Positions 1,768 through 54,003 of a DNA stretch of 64,000 nucleotides are shown here, one piece after another (within the stretch, counting starts at the first letter, position 1; each line of letters starts with the position of its first letter). The notes under the pieces are model-generated. The model made no database searches. It saw only the letters and a list, made by a program, of their open reading frames with translations, and was not told where the DNA came from. A program made the translations under genes and the position numbers. The DNA comes from Falsiroseomonas tokyonensis (lineage in GTDB: Bacteria > Pseudomonadota > Alphaproteobacteria > Acetobacterales > Acetobacteraceae): assembly GCF_019024325.1 (NCBI RefSeq), contig NZ_JAFNJS010000001.1, positions 682,001 to 746,000 on the forward strand, given 5' to 3'.

Positions 1768-1771
1768 GTCC

Positions 1772-2443: not shown

Positions 2444-2452
2444 GGCGGGACG

Positions 2453-10011: not shown

Positions 10012-10073
10012 GGCTGTTCCCTCCGCCCCGAAGCTGACCACGGCGCCGCGCGCCTGGCCACCGCGCGGCAGTG

Positions 10074-10892: not shown

Positions 10893-10937
10893 GCGGCCTT
10901 CGTGCGAGATGGGAGCGGTGGCTTGCCCCCACCCCGA

Positions 10938-10961
10938 CCCTCCCCCGTGAACGGGGGAGGG
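10938..10961. terminator. Strong G/C stem-loop between FAH and xth genes
   Basis: A perfect inverted repeat, CCCTCCCCCG then TGAA then CGGGGGAGGG, lies 8 bp past the stop of the FAH-family gene. No T-run follows on the coding strand, so it could act as a weak or Rho-assisted terminator or as an mRNA-stabilising hairpin. Similar C-rich/G-rich intergenic palindromes recur in GC-rich proteobacteria, so a dispersed repeat is also possible. Confidence 0.5.
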
Positions 10962-10969
10962 GGATTCAC

Positions 10970-11653: not shown

Positions 11654-11723
11654 GCTGATGCTTCCTTGGGAACGCGATGCGCGGGACCATAGCCCCGCCC
11701 GGCCGGCTGGCAAGGGTGCCCGG

Positions 11724-13516: not shown

Positions 13517-13586
13517 CCTGTCGATCCCCGCTTTGGCCGGGAACAATCCCGACAAGTGGTCCGCTGTCCAGCCCAGGTCTGGGTGG

Positions 13587-13622
13587 AAAAGCGACCGCCG
13601 CCGTGCGGCAGCACGGCGGCGG
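13587..13622 (-). terminator. Rho-independent terminator after the DUF4394 gene
   Basis: A perfect 12-bp stem (13595-13606 with 13611-13622) and a 4-base loop are followed on the minus strand by TCGC and then TTTT. It lies 52 bp past the stop of the DUF4394 gene and before the ketopantoate-reductase-like gene, so it likely separates the two leftward transcription units. Confidence 0.7.
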
Positions 13623-13674
13623 CTTCGGGCGGCATGCGCCGGGCGTGCGGGGAACGCGCAGGCCGCCGAAGGGG

Positions 13675-14508
13675 TCAGCGCATGGCAGCGATGTCGATCA
13701 CCTCGGCCTCCGGCAGGCCCGCCACGGCGCCCTGGGCCATCAGGCGGCCGGTCGCGAGGTCGATGCCATGCAGCGTGCCGCCGGCCAGGACGAAGCCGGT
13801 ATTGCCGCCCTGGCCATCCGACAGCACGTCGAAGCCCAGCGCCACCGGCACGCTCATGCCCAGCATGCCCTTCACCTGCTGCACGCCGTCATTCGGCGGC
13901 GCCTGCAGGTTGTAGGTGCCGAGCAGCGTATCGATCGTATAGAGCGCGGTGCTCGGCGCGCCGGGCTGGCCGGCGGCGGGGGCGCCGGCGGGCGGGGCGA
14001 CGCTGTTGGTATAAGCGCCGGCGGTGATGCGCGGCGTGGTGCCGGCCTGCGGCGAGCCGTCCATGTACTTCTGCGTCCCGTCGCGGACCACCTCGCCGGT
14101 CTCCACATTGACGCGGAAGTTCACGCCGCTCATGCCCATCAGGCGCAGGCGGTTGGCCACCGGGTTGAAGTCCACCACGGCGCGGCCGCCGCTTTCGAAG
14201 GGCATGTTCAGGCGCGAGACCTGCGTGGCGCGGCCGCTCATCGGGTCGATGCGGACGATCTGGCCGCTTTCCGTCACGCCATACAGCCCGCCATCCTGCG
14301 GCCGCTGGTCGATGCCGAGCAGCCGGCCATCGGCGCCGGTCACGCGCATCGGCGCCTCGGCACGGCGCGTCTCGCTGTCGATGCGGATCAGCCGGTTGTC
14401 GGCGGTCAGGCCGAGGAGCGTGGCGGCCTGCGCCCCGACGGGGGCCGCAAGGGCACCGCCGGCGATCAGGGCGGCGGCGGCAAGGGCGGTGCGAGCGGTC
14501 TTCGGCAT
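13675..14508 (-). CDS. Secreted DUF4394 domain protein
   Basis: 277 residues. A clear signal peptide (about residues 1-28, ending GAQA) is followed by a single DUF4394 domain made of repeated beta-strand units such as LLGLTADNRLIRID, LLGIDQRPQDGGLYGVTESGQIVRID and FNPVANRLRLM. This is a propeller-like extracytoplasmic fold of unknown role. The gene lies just downstream of a sigma factor/anti-sigma pair reading the same way, a setting that suggests it is a target of that regulator. A candidate ECF-type promoter is present upstream. Confidence 0.82.
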   Translation of the reverse strand: MPKTARTALAAAALIAGGALAAPVGAQAATLLGLTADNRLIRIDSETRRAEAPMRVTGADGRLLGIDQRPQDGGLYGVTESGQIVRIDPMSGRATQVSRLNMPFESGGRAVVDFNPVANRLRLMGMSGVNFRVNVETGEVVRDGTQKYMDGSPQAGTTPRITAGAYTNSVAPPAGAPAAGQPGAPSTALYTIDTLLGTYNLQAPPNDGVQQVKGMLGMSVPVALGFDVLSDGQGGNTGFVLAGGTLHGIDLATGRLMAQGAVAGLPEAEVIDIAAMR

Positions 14509-14556
14509 CGGCGTTTCTCCATCTTCCAGGGCAGGCCTTGAGGCCTTGCTGCTGGC

Positions 14557-14584
14557 GTTACGGAGGGCGGATGCGACTGGATGC
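14557..14584 (-). promoter_or_regulatory. Candidate ECF-type promoter for the DUF4394 gene
   Basis: On the minus strand GCATCC (14584-14579) and CGTAAC (14562-14557) are spaced by 16 bp, resembling ECF promoters of the CCATCC-N16/17-CGTA/CCGAAT kind used by SigK/RskA-type systems. It would place the transcript start about 40 nt before the ATG. CGTAAC also occurs upstream of the sigma gene, but without a convincing -35 there. This is pattern matching only. Confidence 0.3.
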
Positions 14585-14655
14585 GGGCTGGGCCGAAAAA
14601 TTCGCGCGGCCCAGCGTCCCGTGGCCCGGCTTCGGGCGGCTCAGATTCCGGCGGC

Positions 14656-15363
14656 TCAGGTTCCGGCGGCGGGGGACAGGCGGCCGATGAACAGGATCGG
14701 CCCGGTCGGGCGGCCGATCGGCGACCCACCCGGCGGCTCCACCGTGATCTCGATCAGCATGCCGGGGCTCGGCCGGATGGTCGTGGGCGCGACGTTGATG
14801 CGGCCCTCCGCCGGGATCAGACCGAGCGAGGTCGGCGCCGTCGCGCCCTGCGGCAGCGCCCAGAGCTGCAGCGCGCGGCCTTCCGGCGCCGGGCGTGGAT
14901 TCACGGAGGCCAGGCGCAGCCCGCCGCCATCGGCCTCCACCAGCCAGGCCGGCTGGTCGCGCTCGCTCAGCAGCACGGTCATCAGCCGCGGCTCGGGCTC
15001 CGGCCGCAGCAGGATGAAGGCCGCGAGGCCAGCCGCCAGCGCGGTGCCGCCGATGGCGCCCATCCGCCAGGGGTCGCGCAGCCCCGCCCACCAGGGACGT
15101 TTGGCGGGGGCGGGTGCCCGGGTGGGCGTCGGATCCAGCGCCGCGGCGATGCGGTCCCAGAGGCCGGGCGGCGGGGCCTCGGGCGGGGCGAGGGCGATGA
15201 GCGGCGCCAGCCGCGCCTCCCATTCCGCCACCGCCTCGGCCAGTGCGGCATCGCTGTCCAGCGCCGCCGCGACCGCCTGGGCCTCCCGCGCCTCCAGCGT
15301 GCCGAGCACATATTCGGCGGCCAGCGCCTCGCGCTCCTCCGGTGTCAGGCTGGCGGGGATCAC
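14656..15363 (-). CDS. Anti-sigma factor, RskA type
   Basis: 235 residues from a GTG at 15363, chosen because it overlaps the sigma-factor stop as GTGA and has GGGAG eight bases upstream; a GTG at 15372 is the alternative. The cytoplasmic N-terminus has the zinc-less anti-sigma fold with EYVLGTLEAREAQAV and WEARLAPL. One membrane segment follows around residues 98-118, then a periplasmic RskA domain containing LQLWALPQG. It should hold the adjacent ECF sigma factor at the membrane until an outside signal triggers release or proteolysis. Confidence 0.88.
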   Translation of the reverse strand: MIPASLTPEEREALAAEYVLGTLEAREAQAVAAALDSDAALAEAVAEWEARLAPLIALAPPEAPPPGLWDRIAAALDPTPTRAPAPAKRPWWAGLRDPWRMGAIGGTALAAGLAAFILLRPEPEPRLMTVLLSERDQPAWLVEADGGGLRLASVNPRPAPEGRALQLWALPQGATAPTSLGLIPAEGRINVAPTTIRPSPGMLIEITVEPPGGSPIGRPTGPILFIGRLSPAAGT

Positions 15364-15899
15364 GTCAGGCACTCCCGCAGGCGCAGCAGACCACGGCGGA
15401 TCCAGGCCTTCACCGTGCCCAGCGGCAATTCCATCTTCGCCGCGATCTGCGCATGGCTCAGCCCATGCACGAAGGCCAGCACGATGCCGCGCCGGTTGCG
15501 TTCCTCCAGCGTCGCCAGGCAGTTGCGCAGGCGGCGGCCCTCGGCATCGGCGGAAACCCGTTCCAGCGCCTCCGGCTCCACCGGCTGGTCGCCCAGCGCC
15601 GGATCGTCGCTGGGAATTTCCCGGCCCCGCGCGCGCGCCATGTCGAGCGCCGCATAGCGCACGATCGCCGCCAGCCAGGCTTCCGGCGCACCGCGGGAGG
15701 CATCGAACTGATGCGCGCGATGGGCAATCCGCAAGAAGGCGTCCTGCAGCGCATCGGCGGCGGCGTCGCGGTCGCGCAGGATGGCATTGGCGACGCCGAA
15801 GAGCCGCGTCGATTGCCGCTCATAGATCGCGCGCAGGGCGATCCGGTCACCGCCGGCGACGGCGGAGAGCAGGGGGGTTAGGTCAGCGGCGGCGTCCAT
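15360..15899 (-). CDS. ECF RNA polymerase sigma factor
   Basis: 179 residues with only sigma regions 2 and 4. Region 2 includes the DALQDAFLRIA stretch (about 49-59) that binds core polymerase and the -10 element; region 4 carries the helix-turn-helix GLSHAQIAAKMELPLGTVKAWIRRGL near the C-terminus. The direct overlap with an RskA-type anti-sigma gene places it in a SigK-like ECF group, often tied to envelope or oxidative stress. The start at 15899 gives a normal N-terminus. Its probable regulon includes itself and the DUF4394 gene. Confidence 0.92.
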   Translation of the reverse strand: MDAAADLTPLLSAVAGGDRIALRAIYERQSTRLFGVANAILRDRDAAADALQDAFLRIAHRAHQFDASRGAPEAWLAAIVRYAALDMARARGREIPSDDPALGDQPVEPEALERVSADAEGRRLRNCLATLEERNRRGIVLAFVHGLSHAQIAAKMELPLGTVKAWIRRGLLRLRECLT

Positions 15900-16336
15900 C
15901 GGGCGGCAGGATGACCACGCCCTGCGCGGCGGGGCAACCCATTTCGGGAAGGTTACGCAGGCCGTTGCGCTACCGTGCCTGTCGTGCTTCCCGCGCCGCG
16001 CCGGCTGCTTGGAAGGCAGGCAGCGCGCCGGCGGAGTGCCGAAAGCTTCGCCAGAGCCCGGCGGAGGCTGGTGGCGCGCCCGGGCCCGGGCGCTGGCATG
16101 GGGCTTGCCAGGCCTGCCTGGCATGACGCGCTGGCCCCCCTTTCGCAACGCCGCCGCCGGACGACCAGGCTCTACCCCTGGGCGTCCCGGCCGGCCGCCG
16201 CGTTCGCATGGCCTGGCGCGCGCCCGCGGGCGGTGGCGACCAGCCGGCTGATCCAGCGCCGTCGCGTCCCGCCGCGGGACGCGCGGATGGATCGCCGCGT
16301 CCTGTTCCCCACCCTCCCCCACCGGCGGAGCCCTGC
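15900..16336. other. 437-bp divergent intergenic region, regulatory
   Basis: No convincing gene is seen here; the open frames are low-complexity GC-rich translations. The region separates the leftward sigma-factor operon from the rightward nine-gene catabolic operon, so it must carry both promoters. It holds two perfect 18-bp dyads (16076-16093 and 16106-16123). A GGAG motif lies at 16327-16330, in front of the GTG start at 16337. Confidence 0.6.
16076..16123. promoter_or_regulatory. Two adjacent dyads, candidate operator of the catabolic operon
   Basis: The first is an uninterrupted 18-bp palindrome centred on CCCGGGCCCGGG (16076-16093). The second is TGCCAGG-CCTG-CCTGGCA (16106-16123). They lie about 30 bp apart centre to centre, close to three helical turns, and 214-260 bp before the operon start. 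Such spacing suits a dimeric regulator, but no regulator gene lies in the operon and random palindromes are common at this GC content. Confidence 0.3.
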
Positions 16337-17773
16337 GTGACCGAACCCACCTCCCTGGCCGAGCTGGAGCGCCAGCTGGCGCATCAGATGGCGCTGCTCG
16401 CCTATCCCGCCGCGCCCTGGGTCGCCCCGCTGCCCGCGCCGGATGGGGCGGAGGCGCTGGATTGCGCCATCATCGGCGGCGGCATGTACGGCCTGGCCAC
16501 CGCCGCGGCCCTCCGGCGCGAAAGGGTCACGCGCCTCGCCGTCTTCGATGCCTCCCCGCCCGGGCGTGAGGGCCCCTGGGTCAGCTTCGCCCGCATGGCC
16601 ATGCTGCGCACGCCCAAGGACCTGACCGGCCCCGATGGCGGCCTGCCAGCCGCCAGCTTCCGGGCCTGGTGGGAAGCCCAGCACGGCGCCGCGGGCTGGG
16701 CCGCGATGTATCGCGTGCCGCGCACCGCCTGGATGGACTACCTGCGCTGGTTCCGCCGCGTGATGGACCTGCCCGTGCAGAACCATTCTCGGCTGGTCGC
16801 GATGGAGCCCAGCGCGGACGGCACGCTGCTGCAACTGCGCTTCGAGACGCCGGCCGGCCCCGTGCTGCATCATGCGCGCAGCGTGGTGATGGCCACCGGC
16901 TCCGGCGGCAGCGGCGGCCATGCCATTCCGCCGGAGATCGCACAGGCGTTGCCGGCGGGCCGCGTGCTGCATGCGAACGACCTGATCGACCCCGCCTGCT
17001 TCCAGGGGGAGCGCGTGGGTGTGCTGGGTGCCGGCGCCACCGCCTTCGATATCGCCATCACCGCGCTGCAGTCCGGCGCCGCCAGTGCCACCATCTGCAT
17101 CCGCCGCCCCGAAGTGCCGCGCGACAATCCGCGCCGCTGGATGGAGAATGCCGGCTTCCTCGCGCATTACGTGGACCTGCCGGATGCGGTGAAGTGGGAC
17201 TACGCCCTGCGCCTGCGCCGCATCGGCCAGCCGCCACCGCAGCCCACATTCGATGCCGCCATCGCCCTGCCCGGTTTTCGGCTCGCCACCGGCATGCCCT
17301 GGGAGGCCGTGCGTTGGACGGGCGGGGAGATTTTGGTGGAGGGCAATGGGCGCCGCCAGGTTTTCGATCGGTTGGTGATCGCGACGGGCTTCCTCTCCGA
17401 CCTCTCGCTCTGCCCGGAATATGCGGCGCTGCTGCCGGAGATCGCGCTGTGGCGCGACCGCTTTGCGCCCGAGGTCGCGGAGCCGCGGCTCGGCCGACAG
17501 CCCTATCTGGACCGCATGGGCGGCTTCCAGCAGCGCGTGCCGGGCGCGGCGCCCTGGGTGGAGCGGGTCTTCAGCATCACCGGCGCCGCCTCGCTCAGCC
17601 TTGGCCCCATCGCCGCCAGTGTCAGCGGCATGAAATACGCCCTGCCGCGGCTGGTGGAGGGGGTGAAGCGCCGCCTCTTCCTGGATCAGCAGGAGGCCGA
17701 CTGGGCGCATTTCGTGGCCGGCGACCATGCCGAACTCGCCCCCTTCACCCTGCCCGAAAGCGCCGCCGCATGA
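16337..17773 (+). CDS. FAD/NAD(P)-dependent oxidoreductase, flavin monooxygenase-like (copy 1)
   Basis: 478 residues from a GTG at 16337 with GGAG six bases upstream. The FAD site GGGMYGLAT lies near residues 48-56 and the second dinucleotide motif GAGATAFD around 234-241, an arrangement like class B flavin monooxygenases and L-ornithine/lysine N-hydroxylases. The protein resembles the product of the gene at 20400 along its full length (shared RTPK..TGP, NP.RWME, QPPPQ.TF, IALWRDRFAP). It probably oxygenates the pathway substrate or an intermediate. It is the first gene of the nine-gene operon and overlaps the next by ATGA. Confidence 0.78.
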   Translation: MTEPTSLAELERQLAHQMALLAYPAAPWVAPLPAPDGAEALDCAIIGGGMYGLATAAALRRERVTRLAVFDASPPGREGPWVSFARMAMLRTPKDLTGPDGGLPAASFRAWWEAQHGAAGWAAMYRVPRTAWMDYLRWFRRVMDLPVQNHSRLVAMEPSADGTLLQLRFETPAGPVLHHARSVVMATGSGGSGGHAIPPEIAQALPAGRVLHANDLIDPACFQGERVGVLGAGATAFDIAITALQSGAASATICIRRPEVPRDNPRRWMENAGFLAHYVDLPDAVKWDYALRLRRIGQPPPQPTFDAAIALPGFRLATGMPWEAVRWTGGEILVEGNGRRQVFDRLVIATGFLSDLSLCPEYAALLPEIALWRDRFAPEVAEPRLGRQPYLDRMGGFQQRVPGAAPWVERVFSITGAASLSLGPIAASVSGMKYALPRLVEGVKRRLFLDQQEADWAHFVAGDHAELAPFTLPESAAA

Positions 17774-18246
17774 CGACAATTCCCGTCACGCCCCTGGCCG
17801 CGACCCCGGAGGCCATCGCCCCCTATGGCACGCTGGTGCTGCCGGGCGCGGATGGCACGCCCTTTGGCCCGCAGGATGCGACGCTGGACCTGACCCAGGG
17901 CCGGACGCGCCTCACCATCATGCGCCTGCCGCATCGGCCGCTGCTGATCCGCGGCATCACGCGGCACCTGCGCGTCACGCAATGCCTGGCCTCCGCCGAT
18001 GGCGCGGCGTGGTTCATCGGCCTGGCGCGTGCCGATGCGCCGCTGACGGCGGATGCCATCGCCTGCTTCCGCATCCCCGGCGGCACCGCGCTGGCCCTGC
18101 ATCGCGGCACCTGGCACGCCGGCCCCTTCTTCAACGCGACGCAGCAGGACTTCTTCAACCTGGAACTGTCCGACACCAACGAGACGGACCACGACACGGT
18201 GCGGATCGACGAGACCTTCGGTGTCGCCCTGGCGATCGCCGCCTGA
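17770..18246 (+). CDS. Ureidoglycolate lyase (AllA)-like cupin
   Basis: 158 residues, the size of AllA, which splits ureidoglycolate to glyoxylate and urea at the end of allantoin breakdown. The opening VTPLAATPEAIAPYGTLV is typical of the family, and the cupin-like half shows RHLRVTQCL, IACFRIPGGTALALHRGTWHAGPF and the closing FFNLELSDTNETDH. It may therefore act on a ureido- or amido-hydroxy acid. It is coupled on both sides (ATGA upstream, TGATG downstream). True AllA function is not assured, because no allantoicase or urate genes lie here. Confidence 0.75.
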   Translation: MTTIPVTPLAATPEAIAPYGTLVLPGADGTPFGPQDATLDLTQGRTRLTIMRLPHRPLLIRGITRHLRVTQCLASADGAAWFIGLARADAPLTADAIACFRIPGGTALALHRGTWHAGPFFNATQQDFFNLELSDTNETDHDTVRIDETFGVALAIAA

Positions 18247-19118
18247 TGCGCCAGCACGGACGCTACGCCTTCTCCGCCATCGCGCGCCGTCCGGTCTGGG
18301 ACTGGCCGAATGGCACGCGGCTGGCTGTGCATGTCGCGGTGAACCTCGAGGCCTTTCCCTTCGCCGAGGGCTTGGGGATTCCGCTGGTGAACCCGCTGCC
18401 CGAACCCGATGTGCAGAACTACGGATTTCGCGACTGGGGCAACCGCGTCGGCGTCTGGAACCTGCTGGATGCGCTGGATGAGCATGCGATTCCGGCGGCG
18501 GCCTTGCTCAACACCGCGATCTACGACCTGTGCCCGGACGTCGCGCAGGCCTTTCGCGCACGCGGCGATGAATTCGTGGGCCATGGCCGCACCAATGCCG
18601 AACGCCAGTCCGACATGGACGAGGCAACCGAGCGCGCGATGATCGCCGCCTGTCGCGACCGCATCGCGCAGGAGGAAGGCGCCGCGCCGCGCGGCTGGAT
18701 GGGCCCCTGGGTCTCCGAAACCCACGCCACGCCGGACCTGCTGGCGGAGGCGGGCTTCGACTACTGCATGGACTGGACACATGACGACCAGCCGACGCTT
18801 CTGGCCACCCGCGCCGGCCTGCTGGTGACCGTCCCCTATTCGCGCCCAACCAACGACATTCCTGCGCTGCACGCCGCCAAATGGCCGCCCTCGGTCTGGG
18901 CCGACATCCTGATCGACCAGTTCGAGGAACAGCTGCGCCTGTCCCAAAAATGGCCGCTGGTCTTCAACCTGTCGCTGCATCCCTTCCTCGTCGGCCATCC
19001 CTTCCGGTTGCGGCATTTGCGGCGCGTGCTGGCGCATCTCGCCGCGGCGCGGTCGCGCATCTGGCTCTGCCGGCCCGGTGAGATCGCGGCCGATGCGCGC
19101 AAGGTTCTGGCGGCATGA
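18246..19118 (+). CDS. Polysaccharide deacetylase-fold hydrolase, allantoinase (PuuE)-like
   Basis: 290 residues with the NodB/polysaccharide deacetylase fold. The form without classic sugar-deacetylase catalytic spacing, together with NYGFRDWGNRVGVWNLLDALDEH, resembles PuuE-type allantoinases and related cyclic-amide hydrolases. FVGHGRTNAERQ and LSLHPFLVGHPFRL supply the His residues expected to hold the metal. It overlaps the AllA-like gene by one base and the amidohydrolase gene by ATGA. Next to an AllA-like protein, a ring-opening step on an N-heterocycle is a fair guess. Confidence 0.75.
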   Translation: MRQHGRYAFSAIARRPVWDWPNGTRLAVHVAVNLEAFPFAEGLGIPLVNPLPEPDVQNYGFRDWGNRVGVWNLLDALDEHAIPAAALLNTAIYDLCPDVAQAFRARGDEFVGHGRTNAERQSDMDEATERAMIAACRDRIAQEEGAAPRGWMGPWVSETHATPDLLAEAGFDYCMDWTHDDQPTLLATRAGLLVTVPYSRPTNDIPALHAAKWPPSVWADILIDQFEEQLRLSQKWPLVFNLSLHPFLVGHPFRLRHLRRVLAHLAAARSRIWLCRPGEIAADARKVLAA

Positions 19119-20383
19119 CCCGTCTCGCGAGGCCCCTGCTGTTCCGCGGCGCCACGCTGCTTCCCGGCGGCGCCGACTGGGCGCCCCGCGCGCCCATCGA
19201 CCTGCTGGTGGCCGGGGGCCGCGTCGCCGCCATCGGCGCGGCGCTGGAGGTGACGGAGGCGGAGGAGATCGGCGCACACCACCTGCTGCTGCTGCCCGCC
19301 TTCGTCAACGCGCATACCCATTCGCCGGAGGCGCTGGCGCGTGGCCGGGCGCCCATGGCGCGGCTGGATGAATGGCTCGCCGCTGAATATGCCGATGGCC
19401 AGGATGCGCTGCCGGAAGCGCGCATCCGCCAGGCCATCCTGGTCTCCGCGGCGGAGGCGATCCGCGGTGGCGCCGTGCAGGTCACCGATCATTTCCGGCA
19501 GATCCCGCCGAATGTGGAGTCGGTGGCCATCGCCGCCGCCGCCTGGGCGGAGGGCGGCATCCGCGGCCGCATCGCCATGATGCTGCGCGACCTGCCCTCA
19601 CCCTCGGCCAGCTTCACCCCGCCGAGCACGGAGACGGCCTTGACGGTGGCGGAGGCGCTGGTGAAGGCGCCGCCGAAGGGTGCGGAAATCGGCCTCGGCC
19701 CCTCCGCGCCACAGCGTTGCAGCGATGCGCTGCTGAGCGGCCTCGGTGCCCTGGCGCGGCAGCATGGCGCCCTCCTGCATCTGCATCTCTGCGAGACGGC
19801 GAAGGACGCCGCGGATTGCCGCACGCGCTTCGGCACGGATCCGGTGGCGCATCTGCAGGCGCTGGGTCTCACCGGTTCGCACGCCGAATTCGCCCATTGC
19901 GTACATCTGACGGATGCCGAGCTGGATCGCATGGCCGCGACCGGCACGCTGATGGTGCACAACCCGCTGGCCAATCTCCGCCTCGGCAGCGGCATCGCGC
20001 CGGTGGCCCGCGCCCTGGCGCGCGGCGTGCGCCTCGCGATCGGCTCCGACGGTCCCGGCAGCAACGACACGCAGGACATGCTGGAGGCCGCGAAATTCGC
20101 GCTGCTGCTGCCGCGCGCCGGCCGCCCCGATGCCGAATGGCCGACACCCGCGCAGGTGCTGGCCATGGCTACCGGCGGCGCGGTGCTGGCGCCCGGCGCG
20201 CGGGCGGATCTGCTGGCCTTCGACCTGCGCGCGGCCGCCTTCACCGCTGCGAAGGCGGAGGAGCTGGCGCCGCGCCTGCTGATGGCGGCCCGGCCGCGCG
20301 ACCTGAAGCATGTGATGGCAGACGGCGCCTTCCTGATGCGCGACGGCGCGCTTCTGCCGCCGGCGCTGGCGGCCTGCGCATGA
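19115..20383 (+). CDS. Amidohydrolase superfamily metal-dependent hydrolase/deaminase
   Basis: 422 residues, within the size range of SsnA/TrzN/guanine-deaminase-like enzymes. The metal ligands are visible: FVNAHTHS near residue 67, LHLHLCET around 220, HCVHL near 260 and the late GSDGPGSND near 310. The protein has the usual N-terminal beta-sandwich start and a C-terminal return to it. It should hydrolyse an amine or amide on a heterocycle such as a purine, pyrimidine or triazine. It overlaps the upstream hydrolase by ATGA and is followed after 16 bp by the second monooxygenase-like gene. Confidence 0.82.
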   Translation: MTRLARPLLFRGATLLPGGADWAPRAPIDLLVAGGRVAAIGAALEVTEAEEIGAHHLLLLPAFVNAHTHSPEALARGRAPMARLDEWLAAEYADGQDALPEARIRQAILVSAAEAIRGGAVQVTDHFRQIPPNVESVAIAAAAWAEGGIRGRIAMMLRDLPSPSASFTPPSTETALTVAEALVKAPPKGAEIGLGPSAPQRCSDALLSGLGALARQHGALLHLHLCETAKDAADCRTRFGTDPVAHLQALGLTGSHAEFAHCVHLTDAELDRMAATGTLMVHNPLANLRLGSGIAPVARALARGVRLAIGSDGPGSNDTQDMLEAAKFALLLPRAGRPDAEWPTPAQVLAMATGGAVLAPGARADLLAFDLRAAAFTAAKAEELAPRLLMAARPRDLKHVMADGAFLMRDGALLPPALAACA

Positions 20384-20399
20384 ACACGAAGGGCTGAGC

Positions 20400-21842
20400 A
20401 TGGACGCACTTCCACCACCCGATGCGCTGACGCGGCTGGAGCGTCGCCTGGAATGGGAGCTGGAGACGCTGGCCTATCCGGCGCGGCCCTGGGTGCGACC
20501 GGTCACGCATCCGGACGGGCCGGTGCTGGATGTGCTGGTGGTCGGCGGCGGGCAATGCGGCCTGGCCACCGCCTTCGCCCTGAAGCGCGCGCGCATCGAG
20601 AATATCGCGGTGCTGGAGGCGGAGCCCACGGGCCAGGCCGGCGTCTGGACGCGCTTCGCCCGCATGCACACGCTGCGCACGCCGAAGCATGTGACGGGGC
20701 CGGAGCTGGGCCTGCCCTCGCTGTCCATCCGCGCCTGGTACGAGGCCCAGTACGGCGAAGCGGCCTGGGCGGCGCTGCACAAGATCGGGCGGGAGGACTG
20801 GCAGGCCTATCTCACCTGGCTGCAGCGCGTGCTGGCGCTGCCGGTGCGGCATGGCTGGCGCGTCACCGGCATCACGCCGGAAGGGGACGCGCTGCTGGCG
20901 GTGCAGGCCGTGCATGCGGATGGGACGGCGCAGCGGCTGCTGGCGCGGCAGGTGGTGCTGGCCACGGGGCTGGATGGCTGTGGCGGCTGGCAAGTGCCGG
21001 CGATGATCGCCCAGGCGCTGCCCGCCACGCATTACGCCCATACCGCGCAGCCCATCGACTTTGCCCGGCTGGCGGGTCGGCGCGTGGCGATTCTCGGCGC
21101 CGGCGCCTCGGCCTTCGACAATGCGGCAACGGCGCTGGAGGCCGGCGCCGTGCGCGTCGATCTGCTGGCGCGTCGCCCGGTGCTGCCATCCGTCAACCCA
21201 AACCGCTGGATGGAATTCTTCGGTTTCCTGCACCACTTCGCCGATCTGCCGGACGCGCAAAAATGGCGCTTCATGCAAACGCTGTTTGCCCTGAACCAGC
21301 CACCGCCTCAGGAGACGTTTTCGCGATGCGCGGCACATGATCGCTTCTTCCTGCATCTGGGAGCGCCGCTGACCACGCTCGGCATGATGGGCGAGACGAT
21401 CCGGCTGGAGACGCCGCGCGCGACGCTGGAGGTCGACTTCCTGATCGTCGGCACCGGGCTGGTGGTGGACCTCACGCTGCGGCCCGAACTTGCGGGGCTG
21501 GCGCAGCACATAGCCCTGTGGCGCGACCGCTTTGCGCCGGCGGCGGAGGACCGGCTGCTGGGCGCCTATCCCTATCTCAACGACAGCTTCGCCTTCACCG
21601 AACGCCACCCGGGCGCCGCGCCGTGGCTGGCGCGGCTGCGCTCCTCCTCCTTCGCCGCCATGCCCTCCACCGCCTCCTCCGCCGGCATCTCAACCCTGCG
21701 ACCAACGGTAGAGCGCATCGCGCGCGGCATCGCCCGGGATCTGTTCTGCGAGCAGTCCGGCGCGGATTACGACTCGCTATGTGCTTATGACGAGGCGGAG
21801 CTCGTGGACCTCCGCCTCGCCTCCGACAGGAGCCCGGCATGA
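20400..21842 (+). CDS. FAD/NAD(P)-dependent oxidoreductase, flavin monooxygenase-like (copy 2)
   Basis: 480 residues; FAD motif GGGQCGLAT near 49-57 and second motif GAGASAFDNA around 234. It is a paralogue of the operon's first gene, with matching length and conserved blocks throughout, so the pair arose by duplication or forms a heteromeric or sequential enzyme set. It overlaps the HpaB-like gene by ATGA. The enzyme may act as an oxygenase, or as a flavin reductase partner for the HpaB-type protein, which needs reduced FAD; no separate HpaC-type reductase is seen in the operon. Confidence 0.78.
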   Translation: MDALPPPDALTRLERRLEWELETLAYPARPWVRPVTHPDGPVLDVLVVGGGQCGLATAFALKRARIENIAVLEAEPTGQAGVWTRFARMHTLRTPKHVTGPELGLPSLSIRAWYEAQYGEAAWAALHKIGREDWQAYLTWLQRVLALPVRHGWRVTGITPEGDALLAVQAVHADGTAQRLLARQVVLATGLDGCGGWQVPAMIAQALPATHYAHTAQPIDFARLAGRRVAILGAGASAFDNAATALEAGAVRVDLLARRPVLPSVNPNRWMEFFGFLHHFADLPDAQKWRFMQTLFALNQPPPQETFSRCAAHDRFFLHLGAPLTTLGMMGETIRLETPRATLEVDFLIVGTGLVVDLTLRPELAGLAQHIALWRDRFAPAAEDRLLGAYPYLNDSFAFTERHPGAAPWLARLRSSSFAAMPSTASSAGISTLRPTVERIARGIARDLFCEQSGADYDSLCAYDEAELVDLRLASDRSPA

Positions 21843-23299
21843 TCAAGGACGGTGCCGCCCATCTGCGCAGCCTGCGGGACGAGCGCACCATCTTCATCGA
21901 TGGCCGGCGCGTGCAGGATGTCACCATCGACCCCGCCTTCGCCGGCGCCGTCGCCTCCGCCGCTTCGCTCTACGACTACCAGGCGCAGCACCCCGACGAG
22001 ATGACCTTCGTGACCGAGACCGGCGCGCGCGTGAATCGCGCCTGGTCCCTGCCACGCAACCACACGGAACTGGTCATCCGCCGCCGCGCCATGGAGCGCT
22101 GGGCGAAGCAGAGCTGCGGCATGATCGGCCGCTCACCCGACCACGTCGCCTCCACTTTTGTTGGCTTCATGATGGGTCTGCACGCCTATGAAGCCCCGCG
22201 CGCCGCCGCGCTGGCAGACTACTTCCGGGGGGCGCGCGACGCGGATCGCTTCCTGTCCTACGTCATCGTCAATCCACAGGCGGACAAGTCCCGCTCCGCT
22301 GGCAACCAGCCCGGCGGCGGCCTGGTCGCCAGCGTGGTGGATGAGGACAGCCACGGCATCACGATCCGCGGCGCCAAGATGCTGGCCACAAGCGGCATCA
22401 TGGCGAACGACCTGATGGTCTCCGGCTTCGCGGCGCTCGCCCCGGGCGACGAGGCCTACGCCTTCACCGCCGTCACGCCCATGGCGACGCGCGGCCTGAA
22501 GCTGCACTCGCGCCGCAGCTACCAGGCCGCCGCCACCTCCACCTTCGACTACCCCCTCTCCTCCCGCTTCGATGAGAACGACGCCGTGGTGGTCTTCGAG
22601 GACGTAAAGATCCCCTGGGACTGCGTCTTCGTCCACAAGGATTTGCGGATGGCCCAGGCGCAGTGGCATGAGACGCGGGCGCATGTGATGCAGAACTACC
22701 AATGCATCGTCCGCCTGATGGTGAAGCTGCGTTTTCTTCTTGGCCTCGCCCACAAGGTGGCCGAGGTGAACGGCATTCTGGGCTTTCCCCAGACCCGCGA
22801 AACGCTGGGGCTGCTGGCGGCGAAATCGCAAAATATCGAGGCGCTGGTCGTCGCCATGGAAGCGGCCGGCGAATCCTTCCACGGCTACTTCGTGCCCAAC
22901 CGCCCGATGCTCGTCACCGCGCAGGTGATTGCCCAAACCACCTATCCCGAGTTCATCGAGGCGATCCGCGGCCTGGCCGGCGGCGGCGTCATCATGGTGC
23001 CCTCCTCCGCCGCCGATTTCGATGGCGGCGAGATCGAGGGGCTGATCCGCGCCGCGCAACGCTCCCCCGTCACGGATAGCGAAGGCCGCGTGAAACTGAT
23101 GAAGCTGGCCTGGGACGCCATCGGTTCCGAATTCGGATCGCGCCATCTGCAATACGAGATGTTCTATTCTGGCGCGCCCTTCGTGACGCGCGGCAACAGC
23201 TACCGCTTTCACGACTGGGCGCGCGACACCGGCTTTGTCGACGCCTTCATGACCAGCTACGCCCTGGACCGCAGCAACCAAAAGGCCGCCGCAGAATGA
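21839..23299 (+). CDS. 4-hydroxyphenylacetate 3-hydroxylase (HpaB)-family monooxygenase
   Basis: 486 residues, full length for HpaB-type flavin-dependent monooxygenases, which use free FADH2 and O2 to hydroxylate phenols and, in some members, N-heterocycles such as pyrroles. HPDEMTFVTETG, IVNPQADKSR, ITIRGAKMLATSG and the late VMVPSSAADF-like segment are in the expected order and fold (acyl-CoA dehydrogenase-like). It overlaps its neighbours on both sides by ATGA. The substrate is unknown; the setting favours a nitrogen-containing ring over 4-hydroxyphenylacetate, since no other hpa genes are present. Confidence 0.86.
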   Translation: MIKDGAAHLRSLRDERTIFIDGRRVQDVTIDPAFAGAVASAASLYDYQAQHPDEMTFVTETGARVNRAWSLPRNHTELVIRRRAMERWAKQSCGMIGRSPDHVASTFVGFMMGLHAYEAPRAAALADYFRGARDADRFLSYVIVNPQADKSRSAGNQPGGGLVASVVDEDSHGITIRGAKMLATSGIMANDLMVSGFAALAPGDEAYAFTAVTPMATRGLKLHSRRSYQAAATSTFDYPLSSRFDENDAVVVFEDVKIPWDCVFVHKDLRMAQAQWHETRAHVMQNYQCIVRLMVKLRFLLGLAHKVAEVNGILGFPQTRETLGLLAAKSQNIEALVVAMEAAGESFHGYFVPNRPMLVTAQVIAQTTYPEFIEAIRGLAGGGVIMVPSSAADFDGGEIEGLIRAAQRSPVTDSEGRVKLMKLAWDAIGSEFGSRHLQYEMFYSGAPFVTRGNSYRFHDWARDTGFVDAFMTSYALDRSNQKAAAE

Positions 23300-24465
23300 C
23301 GCCCGAGCAAATCCGCGCCAGCGCCTTCGTGGCGCATGGCGACATCCGCATCGAGGGCGCCCCCAGCGGCCCGCTCGCCGGGCTCACCTTTGCGGCGAAG
23401 GACCTGTTCGATGTGGCCGGCACACGCAGCGGCTGGGGCAATCCGGATCGGCTGCGCGATGCGCCCGTCTCGCTCACCACCGCCTCCGCTCTGCTGCCGG
23501 CGCTGGATGCCGGCGCGACGCTGATCGGCAAGACGCATACGGATGAGATCGCGAGCGGCCTGTTCGGCGAGAACCCGCATTACGGCGCGCCGATCAATCC
23601 GCGCGCGCCGGATCGCGTGCCGGGTGGTTCCTCCTCCGGCTCCGCCTCCGCGGTCGCCGGGGGGCTGTGTGACTTCGCCTTCGGCACGGATACCGGCGGC
23701 TCCGTCCGCGTACCCTCCTCCTTCTGCGGCCTCTACGGCATCCGCACCACGCATGGCCGCGTCTCGGTCGCCGGCGTCATGCCCATGGCGCCGAGCATCG
23801 ACACGGTGGGCTGGTTCGCGCGCGACGCCGCGCTGCTGCGCCGCATCGGCGAGGTCTTCTTCGGCCCCGCCCCCGCGACCGCGCCGCGCCTGCTGATCGC
23901 CGAGGATGCCTTCGAGATTCCGCAACCCACCCTTGGCGCCGCGCTTCGCGACGCGGCCCAGGGCCTCGGCGCGGCGCAGAGCGTGACGCTGTATGAGGAA
24001 GGCGCCGCGCATTGGCTCGACACCTTCCGGCCGCTGCAATTGGGGGAGCTCTGGACCACCCACGGCACCTGGGCGCGCGAGCCCGGCCGCCGCCTCAGCC
24101 CCGCCGTGGCGGACCGGCTGGAACTCGCCGCCACCGTCACGCCGCAGGCCATCGCCACCGCCTGGCGCGAACGCGAAAGGCTCACGGCACGCCTGCATGC
24201 GCTGCTCGGCACCGATGGGGTGCTCATCCTCCCGACGGCGCATGACCTGCCGCCGCTGCGCGATGCCCCCGTCTCCGCACAGATGGCCTTCCGGGATCGC
24301 ACCCTGGCGCTGACCTGCGTCGCCAGCCTGTGCCGCCTGCCGCAGGTGAACATCCCCGCGGGCACGCTGGATGGCATTCCCATCGGCCTGTCGCTGATCG
24401 GTGGCTCCTACCAGGACGCCGCCCTGCTGGCCGCCGCCGAGACCCTGGGAGCGCGCCTCGCATGA
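23296..24465 (+). CDS. Amidase signature family hydrolase
   Basis: 389 residues, somewhat shorter than the common 460-500. The Ser-cisSer-Lys machinery is visible: the Lys in FAAKDLFDVAG near residues 31-41, the glycine/serine-rich VPGGSSSGSASAVAGG near 108-123, and FGTDTGGSVRVPSSFCG with the nucleophile Ser. It resembles the AtzE/AtzF and small-amidase subgroups that cleave carbamoyl or amide groups in ring-cleavage products. It overlaps the HpaB-like gene and the next gene by ATGA, and fits a late deamidation step. Confidence 0.85.
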   Translation: MTPEQIRASAFVAHGDIRIEGAPSGPLAGLTFAAKDLFDVAGTRSGWGNPDRLRDAPVSLTTASALLPALDAGATLIGKTHTDEIASGLFGENPHYGAPINPRAPDRVPGGSSSGSASAVAGGLCDFAFGTDTGGSVRVPSSFCGLYGIRTTHGRVSVAGVMPMAPSIDTVGWFARDAALLRRIGEVFFGPAPATAPRLLIAEDAFEIPQPTLGAALRDAAQGLGAAQSVTLYEEGAAHWLDTFRPLQLGELWTTHGTWAREPGRRLSPAVADRLELAATVTPQAIATAWRERERLTARLHALLGTDGVLILPTAHDLPPLRDAPVSAQMAFRDRTLALTCVASLCRLPQVNIPAGTLDGIPIGLSLIGGSYQDAALLAAAETLGARLA

Positions 24466-25439
24466 GCCTGCACCTCACCATAGGCGTCTCCGACTGCGAT
24501 CGTGCCCGTGCCCTGGCTGAGGGTCGCGTGCCCATCGCGGGCGTGGCGGCGGAGACGACGGTCATGCCGCTGCAGCCGCTGTTCAACCTGCAGATGACGC
24601 AACACCGCTTCGACTGCTGCGAATTCCCCATCGCCACCTGGCTGCGGCATTTCGACAGGCCGCAGCAGGATTACGTCGGCATCCCCGTCTTCCCCTCCCG
24701 CCATTTCCGCTTCTCCTGCGTCTTCGTGAACAAGGCGAAGGGATTCACAAAACCGTCCGATCTGGCAGGGCGCCGCATCGGCACCATGGTCTGGGACATG
24801 GCCGCCGCCGTCTGGCTGCGCGGCATTTTCGATGAGCACTACGGGCTGCACTGGCGATCACCGATCTACGTCAATGCCGGGCTGAACGAGGCCCGCGCCG
24901 GCGAGGATCACCCCCAGCAATATCCGGAGGGCGTCGCCATCGAGCACGTCACCGATCGCAGCCTGTCTGAGATGCTGGAAACAGGCGAGATCGACGCCCT
25001 CTACACCGCCCGCGCGCCCGACAGTTTTTTCAGCGCCCCCGACAAGGTCGGTCGCCTCTTCGCCGATCCCATGGCCGCGGAGCTCGACTATTTTGCGCGC
25101 ACAAGGATCTTCCCGCCGATGCACCTCATCGCCGTGAAGCGCCGCTTCGTGGACGAAAATCCCTGGCTGCCGCGCGCGCTGTTTGACGCCTTCGTGGAGT
25201 CGCAGCGCCTGGCGCGGCTGCGGCTGCATGACAGTGCGACGCTCGCCGTTGGCCTGCCCTTCCTGGCGCAGCAGCTGGAGGAAACGGAGCGCCGGCTCGG
25301 CCCCGCCTTCTGGTCCGCGGGCTTCACCGCCAATCGCGAGGTTTTTGCGACCCTCATCCGCTACCTCCGCGCCGAGGGCCTGCTGGCCCGCAACCTGGCG
25401 CCGGAGGACCTGTTCCTCGCTTCCCTGCTGGAGACCTGA
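24462..25439 (+). CDS. 4,5-dihydroxyphthalate decarboxylase-like protein (PBP2 fold)
   Basis: 325 residues related to the Dhp decarboxylase/NMT1-like group, which has the fold of periplasmic binding proteins. It begins MSLHLTIGVSDCDRARAL with no signal peptide, so it is cytoplasmic and more likely an enzyme than a transport receptor. FNLQMTQHRFDCCEFPIATWL and IGTMVWDMAAAVWLRGIF are typical of the decarboxylase branch. A decarboxylation of a hydroxylated ring acid would follow the monooxygenases logically. It is three bases from the next gene. Confidence 0.75.
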   Translation: MSLHLTIGVSDCDRARALAEGRVPIAGVAAETTVMPLQPLFNLQMTQHRFDCCEFPIATWLRHFDRPQQDYVGIPVFPSRHFRFSCVFVNKAKGFTKPSDLAGRRIGTMVWDMAAAVWLRGIFDEHYGLHWRSPIYVNAGLNEARAGEDHPQQYPEGVAIEHVTDRSLSEMLETGEIDALYTARAPDSFFSAPDKVGRLFADPMAAELDYFARTRIFPPMHLIAVKRRFVDENPWLPRALFDAFVESQRLARLRLHDSATLAVGLPFLAQQLEETERRLGPAFWSAGFTANREVFATLIRYLRAEGLLARNLAPEDLFLASLLET

Positions 25440-25442
25440 CGC

Positions 25443-26471
25443 ATGGTCACCACCGACGACCGAGCGCAGCGCCTGCTGGAATCCGCCGCGAAGTTTCGCG
25501 CGCCCTTCACGCTGGACCCGACGCTCGCGCTGTATTCGCCGCAGGACAATGTGGATGCGCTCAAACATCCCCGCATCGCGGCCTGGATGCGCTTTGTCGG
25601 GCAGGACTACGTGCCGAGCCTGCCCGAGGCCCGGGAACACGTGCTGCTGCTGCTGCCCTGCACGCGCACCAAGCCGTACATCCTCTCGACTGAGCATCGC
25701 CGCATCAACGCCGCGCTGCTCGCCGCCGGTTTCGCGCCCACCGCGCCCGCCGAGCCGCGTCTGCTGGCTTTCCGGACGGCGGAGGAGCCGGAGGCGCTGT
25801 TCAGCCTGGCGCCGCTGACACACCCCTATGGCGTGGTGGTGCATCGCGCCGTGATCAGCGAGCCGCTCGGCCTGGTGCCCTACGAACATATGCTGGACTA
25901 CCCGGGCGGCACCTCGCCCGCCGTGCTCTACGACGACCCCGGCCTCTTCGAGGATCGCGGCAATGCCGTCTCCCCCTGGCGGGCGGATTCCACCGCGCTG
26001 CGCGTCTCCGCCGCGCGCTGGAAATGGGGCCCCAACGAGAAGCGCGCCTATGTCGAGATGCACAATGCCATGGCCACCGCGGTGGCGGAGGCGCTGGGAC
26101 GCTTCGGCCATCTGTACACGCGCCGCATCTCATGGGTCGCGCCCGGTCTGACCCATCGCAGTTTCGTCGTGGCGAAGGCGGAGCGCGCGGCGCATGGCAT
26201 CGTGGCGACGCGGCAGGTGGGGACGGAGCGTCTCGCCTTGACCGGCGCCAACGACCTTCTGGCGCCGGAGCTCGCCCTCACCGCGCTGCCGACGCGGCTG
26301 CAATGCGCCGAGGCGCTGGCGCGGCTGGCCACGCGCCTCGGCCGCAGCCAGGCGGAGGCCGCCGGCCATTTCGGCCGCGGCGGCGGCGATGCGACGCCGC
26401 TGGCCCTGCCCGAATTGCTGGAGGATCTGTTGGCGGCGGTGCTGCCGGTGAGGGTTGCGAAGGCGGCGTAG
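25443..26471 (+). CDS. ArcS-like (DUF5591-type) protein with PC-X3-KPY-X2-S-X2-H motif
   Basis: 342 residues. Residues 72-85 (PCTRTKPYILSTEH) fit exactly the PC-X3-KPY-X2-S-X2-H motif described for archaeosine synthase ArcS/TgtA2, where it marks the domain that modifies preQ0 in tRNA. Here there is no PUA RNA-binding domain and no TGT-like domain, only the core plus a C-terminal helical part (about 235-342). It is the last gene of a catabolic operon in a bacterium, which does not make archaeosine. A role on a free deazaguanine-like or other heterocyclic nitrile/amidine compound is possible but unproven. The family link is by motif recall; a profile search would settle it. Confidence 0.6.
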   Translation: MVTTDDRAQRLLESAAKFRAPFTLDPTLALYSPQDNVDALKHPRIAAWMRFVGQDYVPSLPEAREHVLLLLPCTRTKPYILSTEHRRINAALLAAGFAPTAPAEPRLLAFRTAEEPEALFSLAPLTHPYGVVVHRAVISEPLGLVPYEHMLDYPGGTSPAVLYDDPGLFEDRGNAVSPWRADSTALRVSAARWKWGPNEKRAYVEMHNAMATAVAEALGRFGHLYTRRISWVAPGLTHRSFVVAKAERAAHGIVATRQVGTERLALTGANDLLAPELALTALPTRLQCAEALARLATRLGRSQAEAAGHFGRGGGDATPLALPELLEDLLAAVLPVRVAKAA

Positions 26472-26501: not shown

Positions 26502-28025
26502 TCAGGTTTCCAGCATCCGGCGCAGCAGCTCGACATCTTCCGCAAACGCGCTGTCGGCCTGCATCAGCTCGGCCACGCGGCTGACGGCGTGCATCACGGT
26601 GGTGTGGTCGCGCCCACCAAAACGGCGGCCGATCTCGGGCAGGGAACGGCTGGTGAGCTGCTTCGCCAGATACATCGCCACCTGCCGCGGCCGCGCCACG
26701 GCCCGCGCGCGGCGGGGGGAGGACATGTCGGTCAGGCGGATATTGTAGTGTTCCGCCACCCGCTTCTGGATTTCCTCGATCGTCACCCGGCGGTCATGCG
26801 CGCGCAGGATGTCGTGCAGCACCTCCTGCGCGCCTTCCAGAGTCACCGGGCGGCCGAAGAGATTGGCGTGGGCGATCAGCCGGTTCAGCGCGCCTTCCAG
26901 CTCCCGCACGTTGGAGGTGATCTTGTGGGCCAGGAACTCCATCACCTTGACCGGCACCGGCACGCCCTGGGTCTGCGCCTTGGCCTGCAGGATGGAGATG
27001 CGCAGCTCATAGGTGGTGGCATGCAGGTCGGCCACCATCCCGCAGCCCAGCCGGGTGCGCAGGCGGTCCTCGATGCCGGAAAGGTCGGAGGGCGACTTGT
27101 CGGCGGATACAATAATCTGTTTGCCGGCATCGATGAGTGCATTGAAGGTATGGAAGAATTCTTCCTGGGTATTGTCCTTGCCGATCAGGAACTGCAGATC
27201 GTCGATCAGCAGCACATCGACGGAGCGCAGGGATTCCTTGAACTCCATGGTGCTCTGGCTGCGCAGCGCCGCGATGAAGCGGTACATGAACTTCTCGGCG
27301 GACATATAGGCGACGGTCAGCGGCGGCCGTCCATCGGCCACCGCATGTTCGCGGATCGCCCAGGCGCTGGCATGCATCAGGTGCGTCTTGCCCAGCCCAA
27401 CGCCGCCATAGAGGAACAGCGGATTGAAGCCCGGGCTGGCCGGGCGTTCCGCCACGCGCCGCGCGCAGGCATGGGCGAATTCGTTGGGCTTGCCCACCAC
27501 GAAGCTGTCGAAGGTGAAGCGCGGATCCAGCGGCGCGGACCAGTCGCCCCGGCCCTCTGCGGCGCGCGGCTCGGCCGGCCGGCCCAGCGGCTCCGCCAGG
27601 CCCGCGGCCTCCACCGGCTCGGCCAGCTGGCGTGCCGTGATGCGCGCGGATTTACCAGCGTTTTCCGTGGCTTCCATGTCGTGCGCCAGGCCATTCCGCG
27701 GGTCCGTCACGGCCGGCGTCCGTGGCTCCGGCGCGCGGTTTTCCGGCATCACGCGGAAGTCGAGGCGGCGGATGGAGGGCAGTTCGGCCTGCCACAGCGC
27801 GCGCAGCCGGTCGCCGTAATGGCCACGCACCCAGTCGCGCAGGAAGCGGGTGGGCAGCAGGATGATGGCTTCCTCGCCCTGCACGGAGGCAAGCGTCATC
27901 TGCCGCAGCCAGGTGCGGTATTCGACCTCACCCACCTCTTCCTTCAGCCTACCCCGGATGCGTGCCCAGACCTCCGCCAGCTGCGTGGGGGAGGAAGGAG
28001 ACGACGGGCCGACCGCATTCTCCAT
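26502..28025 (-). CDS. dnaA: Chromosomal replication initiator DnaA
   Basis: 507 residues from the ATG at 28025; a GTG nine bases earlier would add three residues. The order is N-terminal oligomerisation domain (EYRTWLRQM, FLRDWVRGHYGDRL), a variable linker of about 70 residues, the AAA+ domain with Walker A GGVGLGKTHL near 207-216 and Walker B VLLIDDLQFL, and the C-terminal DNA-binding domain ending in the DnaA signature GGRDHTTVMHAV. It binds DnaA boxes and opens the origin. It follows rpsT, as in many Alphaproteobacteria, but dnaN is 24 kb away. It is convergent with the catabolic operon. Confidence 0.97.
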   Translation of the reverse strand: MENAVGPSSPSSPTQLAEVWARIRGRLKEEVGEVEYRTWLRQMTLASVQGEEAIILLPTRFLRDWVRGHYGDRLRALWQAELPSIRRLDFRVMPENRAPEPRTPAVTDPRNGLAHDMEATENAGKSARITARQLAEPVEAAGLAEPLGRPAEPRAAEGRGDWSAPLDPRFTFDSFVVGKPNEFAHACARRVAERPASPGFNPLFLYGGVGLGKTHLMHASAWAIREHAVADGRPPLTVAYMSAEKFMYRFIAALRSQSTMEFKESLRSVDVLLIDDLQFLIGKDNTQEEFFHTFNALIDAGKQIIVSADKSPSDLSGIEDRLRTRLGCGMVADLHATTYELRISILQAKAQTQGVPVPVKVMEFLAHKITSNVRELEGALNRLIAHANLFGRPVTLEGAQEVLHDILRAHDRRVTIEEIQKRVAEHYNIRLTDMSSPRRARAVARPRQVAMYLAKQLTSRSLPEIGRRFGGRDHTTVMHAVSRVAELMQADSAFAEDVELLRRMLET

Positions 28026-28370
28026 GTGATGCACCTGCCAACCTCGTGGGCCCTTGCGGGGCGATGTGCATTTGACCGATCGGCTGCGGAGGATCCGGCC
28101 GCGAAAGACAGGCGCGCGGCTCCTGGGGGATGAGCGCGACTGGTCCGAAGTTACCGCGACGCGCTTGGCCGGCGCAAATGATTACTGGTGGATTCGAAGA
28201 TCGCCTCGCGGCCAATCCAAGTAGTCACGCACCCGCAGCGATGACATTTCGAAACAGAAACAGCAAGCAGCCCGCTATCTCTGCAGGTTGCTTGTCATTC
28301 GTGTCAAAATCTTGAAAGCTGGAGAGGGCCCGTGGTCCCGCCGCACCAGGCGGCGGGCCGGACGGCCTGG
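28026..28370. other. 345-bp rpsT-dnaA intergenic region
   Basis: This stretch should contain the rpsT terminator and the dnaA promoter. On the minus strand a TTGACA hexamer ends at 28302, but no good -10 follows at 16-18 bp. I see no TTATCCACA-type DnaA boxes, no AT-rich unwinding element and no CtrA TTAA-N7-TTAA site, so an origin is not supported. The part at 28180-28320 is less GC-rich than its surroundings, as expected for a promoter. Confidence 0.5.
28337..28357 (-). terminator. rpsT terminator-like hairpin
   Basis: A perfect 8-bp stem CCCGCCGC/GCGGCGGG with a 5-base loop lies 14 bp past the rpsT stop. No immediate T-run follows; TTTC and ATTTT appear only 20-30 bases further on. It is probably a terminator or a 3'-end stabiliser for the short rpsT mRNA. 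Confidence 0.45.
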
Positions 28371-32785: not shown

Positions 32786-32796
32786 GGCTCTTCTCC

Positions 32797-53871: not shown

Positions 53872-54003
53872 CAACGCTTGAACTTCCGATCGGATTGGTC
53901 GGGCGAGCCGGCAGGGGAACCGGGCTTCGTCCGCCGGCGATAGTCGGCCGGCCCGCGCATCATAGCGCGCCGCGAGCCCCGGTTGCAAAAGACGTTTGCG
54001 GGA

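Follow-up and report, generated by a model that had tools for sequence, protein, structure and literature searches.

What does a compact set of nine genes in Falsiroseomonas tokyonensis (Acetobacteraceae) degrade, and do all nine genes serve one pathway? The set lies in a 64,000-nucleotide stretch of contig NZ_JAFNJS010000001.1 (positions 682,001 to 746,000; assembly GCF_019024325.1), hereafter the window, and consists of nine open frames, all on the + strand, at window positions 16337-26471. A preliminary description made from the sequence had proposed a catabolic operon for an N-heterocycle or cyclic amide, and our analysis supports well a conserved catabolic operon for an N-heterocycle. In the reading that we favor, with a rough probability of 0.5, the nine-gene set degrades a purine-like base, in which a second N-heterocycle is fused to a pyrimidinone ring, and does so by a retooled version of urate catabolism.

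Layout and conservation of the gene set

The genes had been described as joined mostly by short overlaps, and this was borne out when frames and junctions were recomputed: from gene 1 to gene 9 the junctions measure -4, -1, -4, +16, -4, -4, -4, and +3 bp, and the ATG of gene 3 sits within a TGATG overlap with gene 2. Purifying selection acts on each of the nine genes, with Ka/Ks values of 0.09-0.34 against the relative G001 (all nine genes compared) and of 0.18-0.35 against G003 (seven genes compared). The operon includes two monooxygenase-like genes of one family (FMOa and FMOb) and one PuuE-like gene. Given 5 FMO and 14 PuuE-family matches in the 6.16-Mb genome, the Poisson chance of two FMOs and one PuuE falling within 10.1 kb is ~8e-7, a rough figure in which the operon's own copies are counted.

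The last gene of the operon, gene 9, encodes a stand-alone ArcS-type (DUF5591) protein; ArcS is archaeosine synthase, an archaeal enzyme acting on a 7-deazaguanine base. In a genus set comprising the own genome and 14 others, we found it in eight of the 14 (G001, G003, G005, G006, G007, G009, G012, and G013); not every one of the other six was searched for it. Own genome included, it occurred in 3 of 385 alphaproteobacterial genomes sampled evenly across the class and in 2 of 150 genomes of the family; in the order of G332 the frequency was 3 of 24. We then compared 50 other gene-9 loci, of which 48 were retrieved by searching named genome contigs with two peptide patterns, an approach that will overlook divergent members. 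The other two were L094 and a plasmid locus of Rhizobium sp. ACO-34A (L036), the only plasmid record carrying gene 9. We excluded L093, L095, and L096, which repeat L060, L066, and L065, as well as L037-L039, which have no gene 9; L016-L035, several of which repeat L040-L052, were also left out. The hosts named for the loci that also hold gene 8 are Acetobacteraceae, genera of Rhizobiales and Rhodobacterales, and a few unplaced metagenome-assembled genomes (MAGs), and gene 9 is also found in MAGs labelled Actinomycetota and Chloroflexi.

Neighboring genes were matched by tblastn (E value 1e-8, coverage of the query 40% or more), and matches below 35% identity were called weak. Gene 8, a decarboxylase-like gene, was present in 34 of the 50 loci and lay no more than 200 bp from gene 9 in 31 of them. 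The same 34 loci carried the amidase in 32 cases and HpaB and FMOb in 31 each, so the operon proposal withstands the objection that its genes might be only rarely together. Further matches in the 34 loci were to AHS2 (26; weak in L046, L048, and L050), PuuE2 (21), AHS3 (15), PuuE3 (9), a flavin reductase (15; weak in the four loci L042-L045), an EutA-like protein (11), AraC (12; weak in L067), an aminotransferase (11), ALDH (10; weak in L041), an NMT1-like protein (10; weak in L058 and L064), an HDAC-like protein (8), CobW (8), and asparaginase (6).

Enzyme families and the link to urate catabolism

The family names given earlier hold broadly, as illustrated by the matches of genes 2, 6, 7, 8, and 9. 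Gene 1 (FMOa, 16337..17773, +) encodes an FAD/NAD(P)H monooxygenase-like protein that matches Pfam FAD/NAD(P)-binding families and has GxGxx[GA] motifs; gene 5 (FMOb, 20400..21842, +) is its paralogue with 45% identity, likewise FAD/NAD(P)-binding and monooxygenase-like. Gene 2 (17770..18246, +) is a distant paralogue of the ureidoglycolate lyase AllA. In its own frame it scores 27.4 against the PF04115 cut-off of 23, with a match limited to positions 67-159 of 162, and in an over-long frame only 22.0; it is a weak but real relative of ureidoglycolate lyase, whose activity is predicted. Gene 3 (18246..19118, +), a PuuE-like hydrolase of the polysaccharide-deacetylase superfamily and distant allantoinase paralogue, keeps 78-90% identity across seven relatives and fails the allantoinase equivalog TIGR03212 (83.7 bits versus 424.6). 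PuuE-like proteins are also possible cyclic-imide hydrolases. Gene 4 (19115..20383, +) encodes a deaminase-like amidohydrolase of TRZ/ATZ and 8-oxoguanine-deaminase type with an HTH motif (PF01979, 135 bits). It falls short of 8-oxoguanine deaminase PRK08203/NF006055 (183.6 versus 532) and of every equivalog cut-off among the 25 of 30 matched families listed.

Gene 6 (21839..23299, +) is the oxygenase part of a two-component flavin monooxygenase of the HpaB type. Like HpaB it carries both Pfam domains at full length and over cut-off (PF11794, 247.2 bits; PF03241, 188.6 bits), and some relatives' clusters include a flavin reductase gene; unlike HpaB systems, the operon has neither a reductase nor other hpa genes, and gene 6 fails the HpaB-1 equivalog TIGR02309 (278.8 versus 480). 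Gene 7 (23296..24465, +), an amidase-signature amidase, passes PRK08310 (NF006169; 463.7 versus 391). Gene 8 (24462..25439, +), in which no signal peptide was seen by eye, aligns over residues 3-325, hence near full length, to PDB 9jp7 ("4,5-dihydroxyphthalate decarboxylase", E 1.3e-56), and decarboxylase activity is predicted; it differs from that system in adjoining gene 9 and in having no phthalate genes in its operon. Gene 9 (25443..26471, +) gave a short match to DUF5591 (31.9 versus a cut-off of 26). It differs from ArcS and AF0587 in being a bacterial, stand-alone protein of 342 aa in a catabolic operon, and it fails the ArcS equivalog NF040592 (30.6 versus 440; model length 575). The motif PCx3KPYx2Sx2H, which we take to be an ArcS hallmark, is present in gene 9 and 49 homologues and is also visible in AF0587.

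The canonical purine genes of this genome lie outside the operon: a PuuE among the 14 family matches genome-wide that exceeds the TIGR03212 cut-off (434.9 bits), an AllA (PF04115, 111 bits), and two HIUases. We therefore rejected genes 2 and 3 as the canonical allantoin genes of the genome, since higher-scoring copies (435 and 111 bits) exist elsewhere; they are paralogues, probably with another substrate. OHCU decarboxylase (PF09349) was found in none of the six genomes searched. Elsewhere in the window's genome, in which no OHCU decarboxylase domain was found, a PuuE-family gene (283 bits) adjoins an HIUase gene (G000 contig C45:431958-433198).

The FMO family provides the connection to urate. 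Among 15 FMO relatives outside gene-9 loci (L027-L034, L089-L092, and L097-L099), six are directly adjoined by HIUase (PF00576), namely those in L033 (8497-10389), L034 (8803-10568), L091 (4641-8323), L097, L098, and L099 (the last three at ~4200-7760). OHCU decarboxylase adjoins the FMO in L097-L099 and is one gene further off in L091, and a PuuE-like gene is near in L097-L099. A further HIUase-FMO pair was recognized by coordinates in G019:C8. The other FMO neighbors include XDH-type subunits (L089), an M20 hydrolase (L034), and an Amidohydro_1 protein (L032). Family members that stand by HIUase, in the place of urate oxidase, are candidate flavin urate hydroxylases and possibly HpyO-like, judging from gene context. 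HpyO is described as a urate hydroxylase that depends on FAD and NAD(P)H and falls outside the HpxO family (PMC4562309). Neither HIUase nor OHCU decarboxylase was found beside FMOa or FMOb in the window operon. The preliminary statement that there are no urate genes stands for the operon itself, but FMOa and FMOb come from a family of which some other members occupy the urate-hydroxylase position.

Proposed pathway, substrate, and rival explanations

In the proposed pathway, the amidohydrolase (gene 4) would take off a ring amine, and the FMOs together with the HpaB-type enzyme would hydroxylate and dearomatize the ring, the flavin reductase for which would need to be encoded elsewhere in this genome. 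The PuuE-like enzyme would then open a lactam or imide, the AllA-like enzyme cleave a ureido acid, gene 8 provide a decarboxylation step, and the amidase release ammonia, while gene 9 would act on a nitrile, amide, or amidine substituent. The closest known system is the conversion of urate to ureidoglycolate with a hydroxylase of the HpxO/HpyO type, which shares PuuE-, AllA-, and purine-deaminase-like enzymes and, elsewhere, an FMO of this family in the urate-hydroxylase position. It differs in that the operon has no HIUase or OHCU decarboxylase, has the additional HpaB, amidase, gene 8, and gene 9, and has a gene 3 far below the PuuE cut-off; HpyO was compared by description only. The earlier substrate list, which ranged from purine-like bases to pyrroles and nicotinate-like compounds, can be narrowed: the contexts of the FMO and gene-9 families suggest that a ring of the purine-like or pyrimidine-fused type is more likely than a simple pyrrole or nicotinate. 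That the substrate is a purine-like ring of some kind is about an even bet.

Within this range, 7-substituted 7-deazaguanines of the preQ0/preQ1 type are the single most likely substrate class, although taken by themselves they are an uncertain choice. They lead because of the ArcS-type gene 9, the adjacent decarboxylase, the guanine-type deaminases, and the side-chain-type enzymes of Rhizobiales. ArcS transfers lysine to preQ0 (PMC11298593). AHS3 of Parvibaculum passes the 8-oxoguanine deaminase cut-off (617.7 versus 532), and in some Rhizobiales clusters there are also a class III aminotransferase, an ALDH, and an amidohydrolase of the histone-deacetylase family (PF00850, 282 bits), enzymes that would be compatible with a side chain of the aminomethyl or amide type. 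Gene 9 would in this case be a free-standing ArcS-derived enzyme whose target is the nitrile, amide, or amidine at C7 of the free base; the C7 carboxylate so formed would be removed by gene 8, and the urate-hydroxylase-like FMOs and the HpaB-type enzyme would oxidize the pyrrole ring. A dedicated catabolic pathway of this kind for preQ0, preQ1, or a queuine-derived base is therefore put forward only tentatively. The enzyme families are all known, and the assembled set had no match in the open-access literature that we searched. No pathway for queuine/7-deazaguanine or deazapurine catabolism appeared there, which is a weak test since part of the search matched general terms only, and nothing was found for pyrrole-2-carboxylate with an amidase or for a cyclic imide hydrolase with a polysaccharide deacetylase.

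Several observations weigh against a purine-like substrate handled by all nine genes. HIUase is missing from 9 of the 15 FMO contexts, and the count of six positive ones is biased upwards, as L097-L099 were picked for the likeness of their FMO to that of Priestia. ArcS works on preQ0 in tRNA or nucleosides, and gene 9 is far below its equivalog. AHS3 is without a close orthologue in the window's genome (30% at best). Relatives of HpaB and of the dihydroxyphthalate decarboxylase use phenolic or aromatic acids, and the class names of several neighbors are superfamily matches that serve other substrates too. In the 7 of 48 loci compared with Rfam (L054-L059 and L061) there was no match at the gathering threshold and no known riboswitch. 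Finally, the set may be divisible into FMOa-AllA-PuuE-AHS and FMOb-HpaB-amidase-gene 8-gene 9: the two parts are on separate contigs in G009 (L022 and L035), and the majority of the Rhizobiales and Rhodobacterales loci hold the second part only, plus other genes.

The separate contigs and the loci with the second part only also speak for two independent modules that merely lie side by side, the first with a family-3-type ABC transporter and the second with an NMT1-type binding protein, and so does the fact that in the fetched stretches FMOa is accompanied by AllA only (L024 and L025) or by PuuE only (L022 and L026). Each module holds an FMO of one family, however, and the two are fused in the window and in six further members of the genus (L016-L021) and adjacent in L023/L046. 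Their adjacency in G006, on one strand and in reverse order, lowered our estimate for independent modules, and we now consider them rather unlikely. The module-2 cluster of Parvibaculum (L055) moreover ends with an FMO (44% to FMOa) and an AllA-like gene (46%; PF04115, 43.6 bits), a point qualified by the grouping of that FMO with the Priestia FMO and not with FMOa. Membership of all nine genes in one pathway is accordingly less certain than had been implied. Breakdown of an N-heteroaromatic acid of the pyridine or pyrrole type, in which HpaB would hydroxylate, gene 8 decarboxylate, and ring opening and the amidase lead to a C4 dicarboxylate, would account for HpaB, gene 8, and the amidase. 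It would agree with the clear flavin reductase matches in 11 of the 34 loci and with the EutA/arylmalonate-decarboxylase-like protein in as many, which is nevertheless under both NCBIfam cut-offs (75 versus 318; 61 versus 225). Distant HpaB relatives (53%) in Thioclava and Caballeronia (L037:11454-15993; L038:11439-17224) also occur with flavin reductase, cupin, amidase, DUF2848, and Liv-type ABC genes. As this explanation leaves the FMO family, the PuuE- and AllA-like proteins, the deaminases, and gene 9 without a role, we regard it as improbable.

Still less probable is ordinary purine catabolism by an alternative urate/8-oxoguanine operon. The FMO contexts, the PuuE-, AllA-, and deaminase-like genes, and the precedent of HpyO would all suit a flavin urate hydroxylase of that kind, but genes 2 and 3 score far lower than the canonical copies, HIUase and OHCU decarboxylase are absent from the operon, and no role in urate catabolism is known for HpaB, gene 8, or gene 9. 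We hold pterins, or another bicyclic aminopyrimidinone whose second ring has six members, to be similarly remote. The deaminases of purine/aminopyrimidinone type and the PnrA- and NMT1/THI5-type transporters of the clusters would fit such compounds, whereas gene 9 links to 7-deazaguanine chemistry and the FMOs to urate. The related case of lumichrome (riboflavin) catabolism by the lum cluster shares the expected hydrolytic removal of a pyrimidine ring; the enzyme types named for it, a P450, a TPP decarboxylase, a xanthine-oxidase-like enzyme, a Rieske enzyme, and a catechol dioxygenase (PMC12746152), are of other types than the present set, and the lumichrome pathway was rejected as an explanation on that ground. 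Degradation of a purine-like base by a retooled urate route remains the reading that we prefer.

Transporters, flanking genes, and related clusters

The reported lack of a transporter in the operon is correct for this genome but does not extend to close relatives, which carry ABC genes within the operon: a permease (BPD_transp_1), an ATPase, and a binding protein of family 3 (polar-amino-acid type), and in some of them also an NMT1/THI5-like binding protein. The permease has only a distant copy in the window's genome (39%), compared with 100% in G001 and 90% in G007, and the NMT1-like protein likewise (43%), G007 being similarly devoid of a close one (41%). The absence of the transporter from the window's operon is a local loss.

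Upstream of the operon lies a divergent ECF sigma factor gene (15360..16322, -; called frame probably too long at its start) next to an anti-sigma gene (14656-15372, -), both sharing the region 13675-16322 (-) with a DUF4394 protein. The same-genus loci L016-L021 likewise have this sigma gene ahead of the operon (82-89% identity), and it is a possible regulator of the operon. Downstream and outside the operon, the convergent dnaA gene (26502..28034, -; TIGR00362, 530 bits) is also found directly downstream in L040 and L042-L045 (86%); no match to it was found in L041. With both flanks largely kept, the location of the operon fits vertical inheritance. Elsewhere, the window holds sarcosine oxidase alpha- and beta-type genes (4731-9126, -), a shikimate-dehydrogenase-like gene (9214-10248), and TctC-type solute receptors (31817-34541, -, and 53983-56016, +), the second in a 677-aa frame whose TctC match begins only at residue 402. 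No tRNA was found in the 64-kb window.

The 16 gene-9 loci without gene 8 have other partners: DUF1989 and class II aldolase in nine each, isochorismatase in eight, an enamidase-like amidohydrolase in eight (named by eye; Pfam gives Amidohydro_1), AA_synth in seven, and a PnrA-like (Bmp) ABC system in four. None of these was found in L060, L065, L066, and L069, where gene 9 is accompanied by a cytidine-deaminase-fold protein, a Rieske oxygenase, a Mo-hydroxylase, and AtzD/TrzD, respectively. A second kind of gene-9 cluster (L075 and L077-L087 except L081), in MAGs of Actinomycetota, Chloroflexi, and some Alphaproteobacteria, combines varying subsets of DUF1989, AA_synth, isochorismatase, enamidase-like amidohydrolase, class II aldolase, and PnrA-/NMT1-type ABC genes. 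In L094, the clearest case, the gene-9 homologue (DUF5591, 27.1 versus 26) is set within a urate island (109-18261) with urate oxidase (PF06181), HIUase, a PuuE-OHCU decarboxylase fusion, allantoicase, AllA, and Xan_ur_permease, together with a Mo-hydroxylase, a ring-opening AtzD/TrzD amidohydrolase, isochorismatase, and a Rieske protein.

Taken together, these findings suggest that the cluster encodes a route for a purine-like ring that has yet to be described, and they place a domain known from tRNA modification in a bacterial catabolic setting. The FMO family offers an assayable set of flavin urate-hydroxylase candidates. If the substrate is indeed a 7-deazaguanine, the pathway would show how these widespread bases are mineralized.

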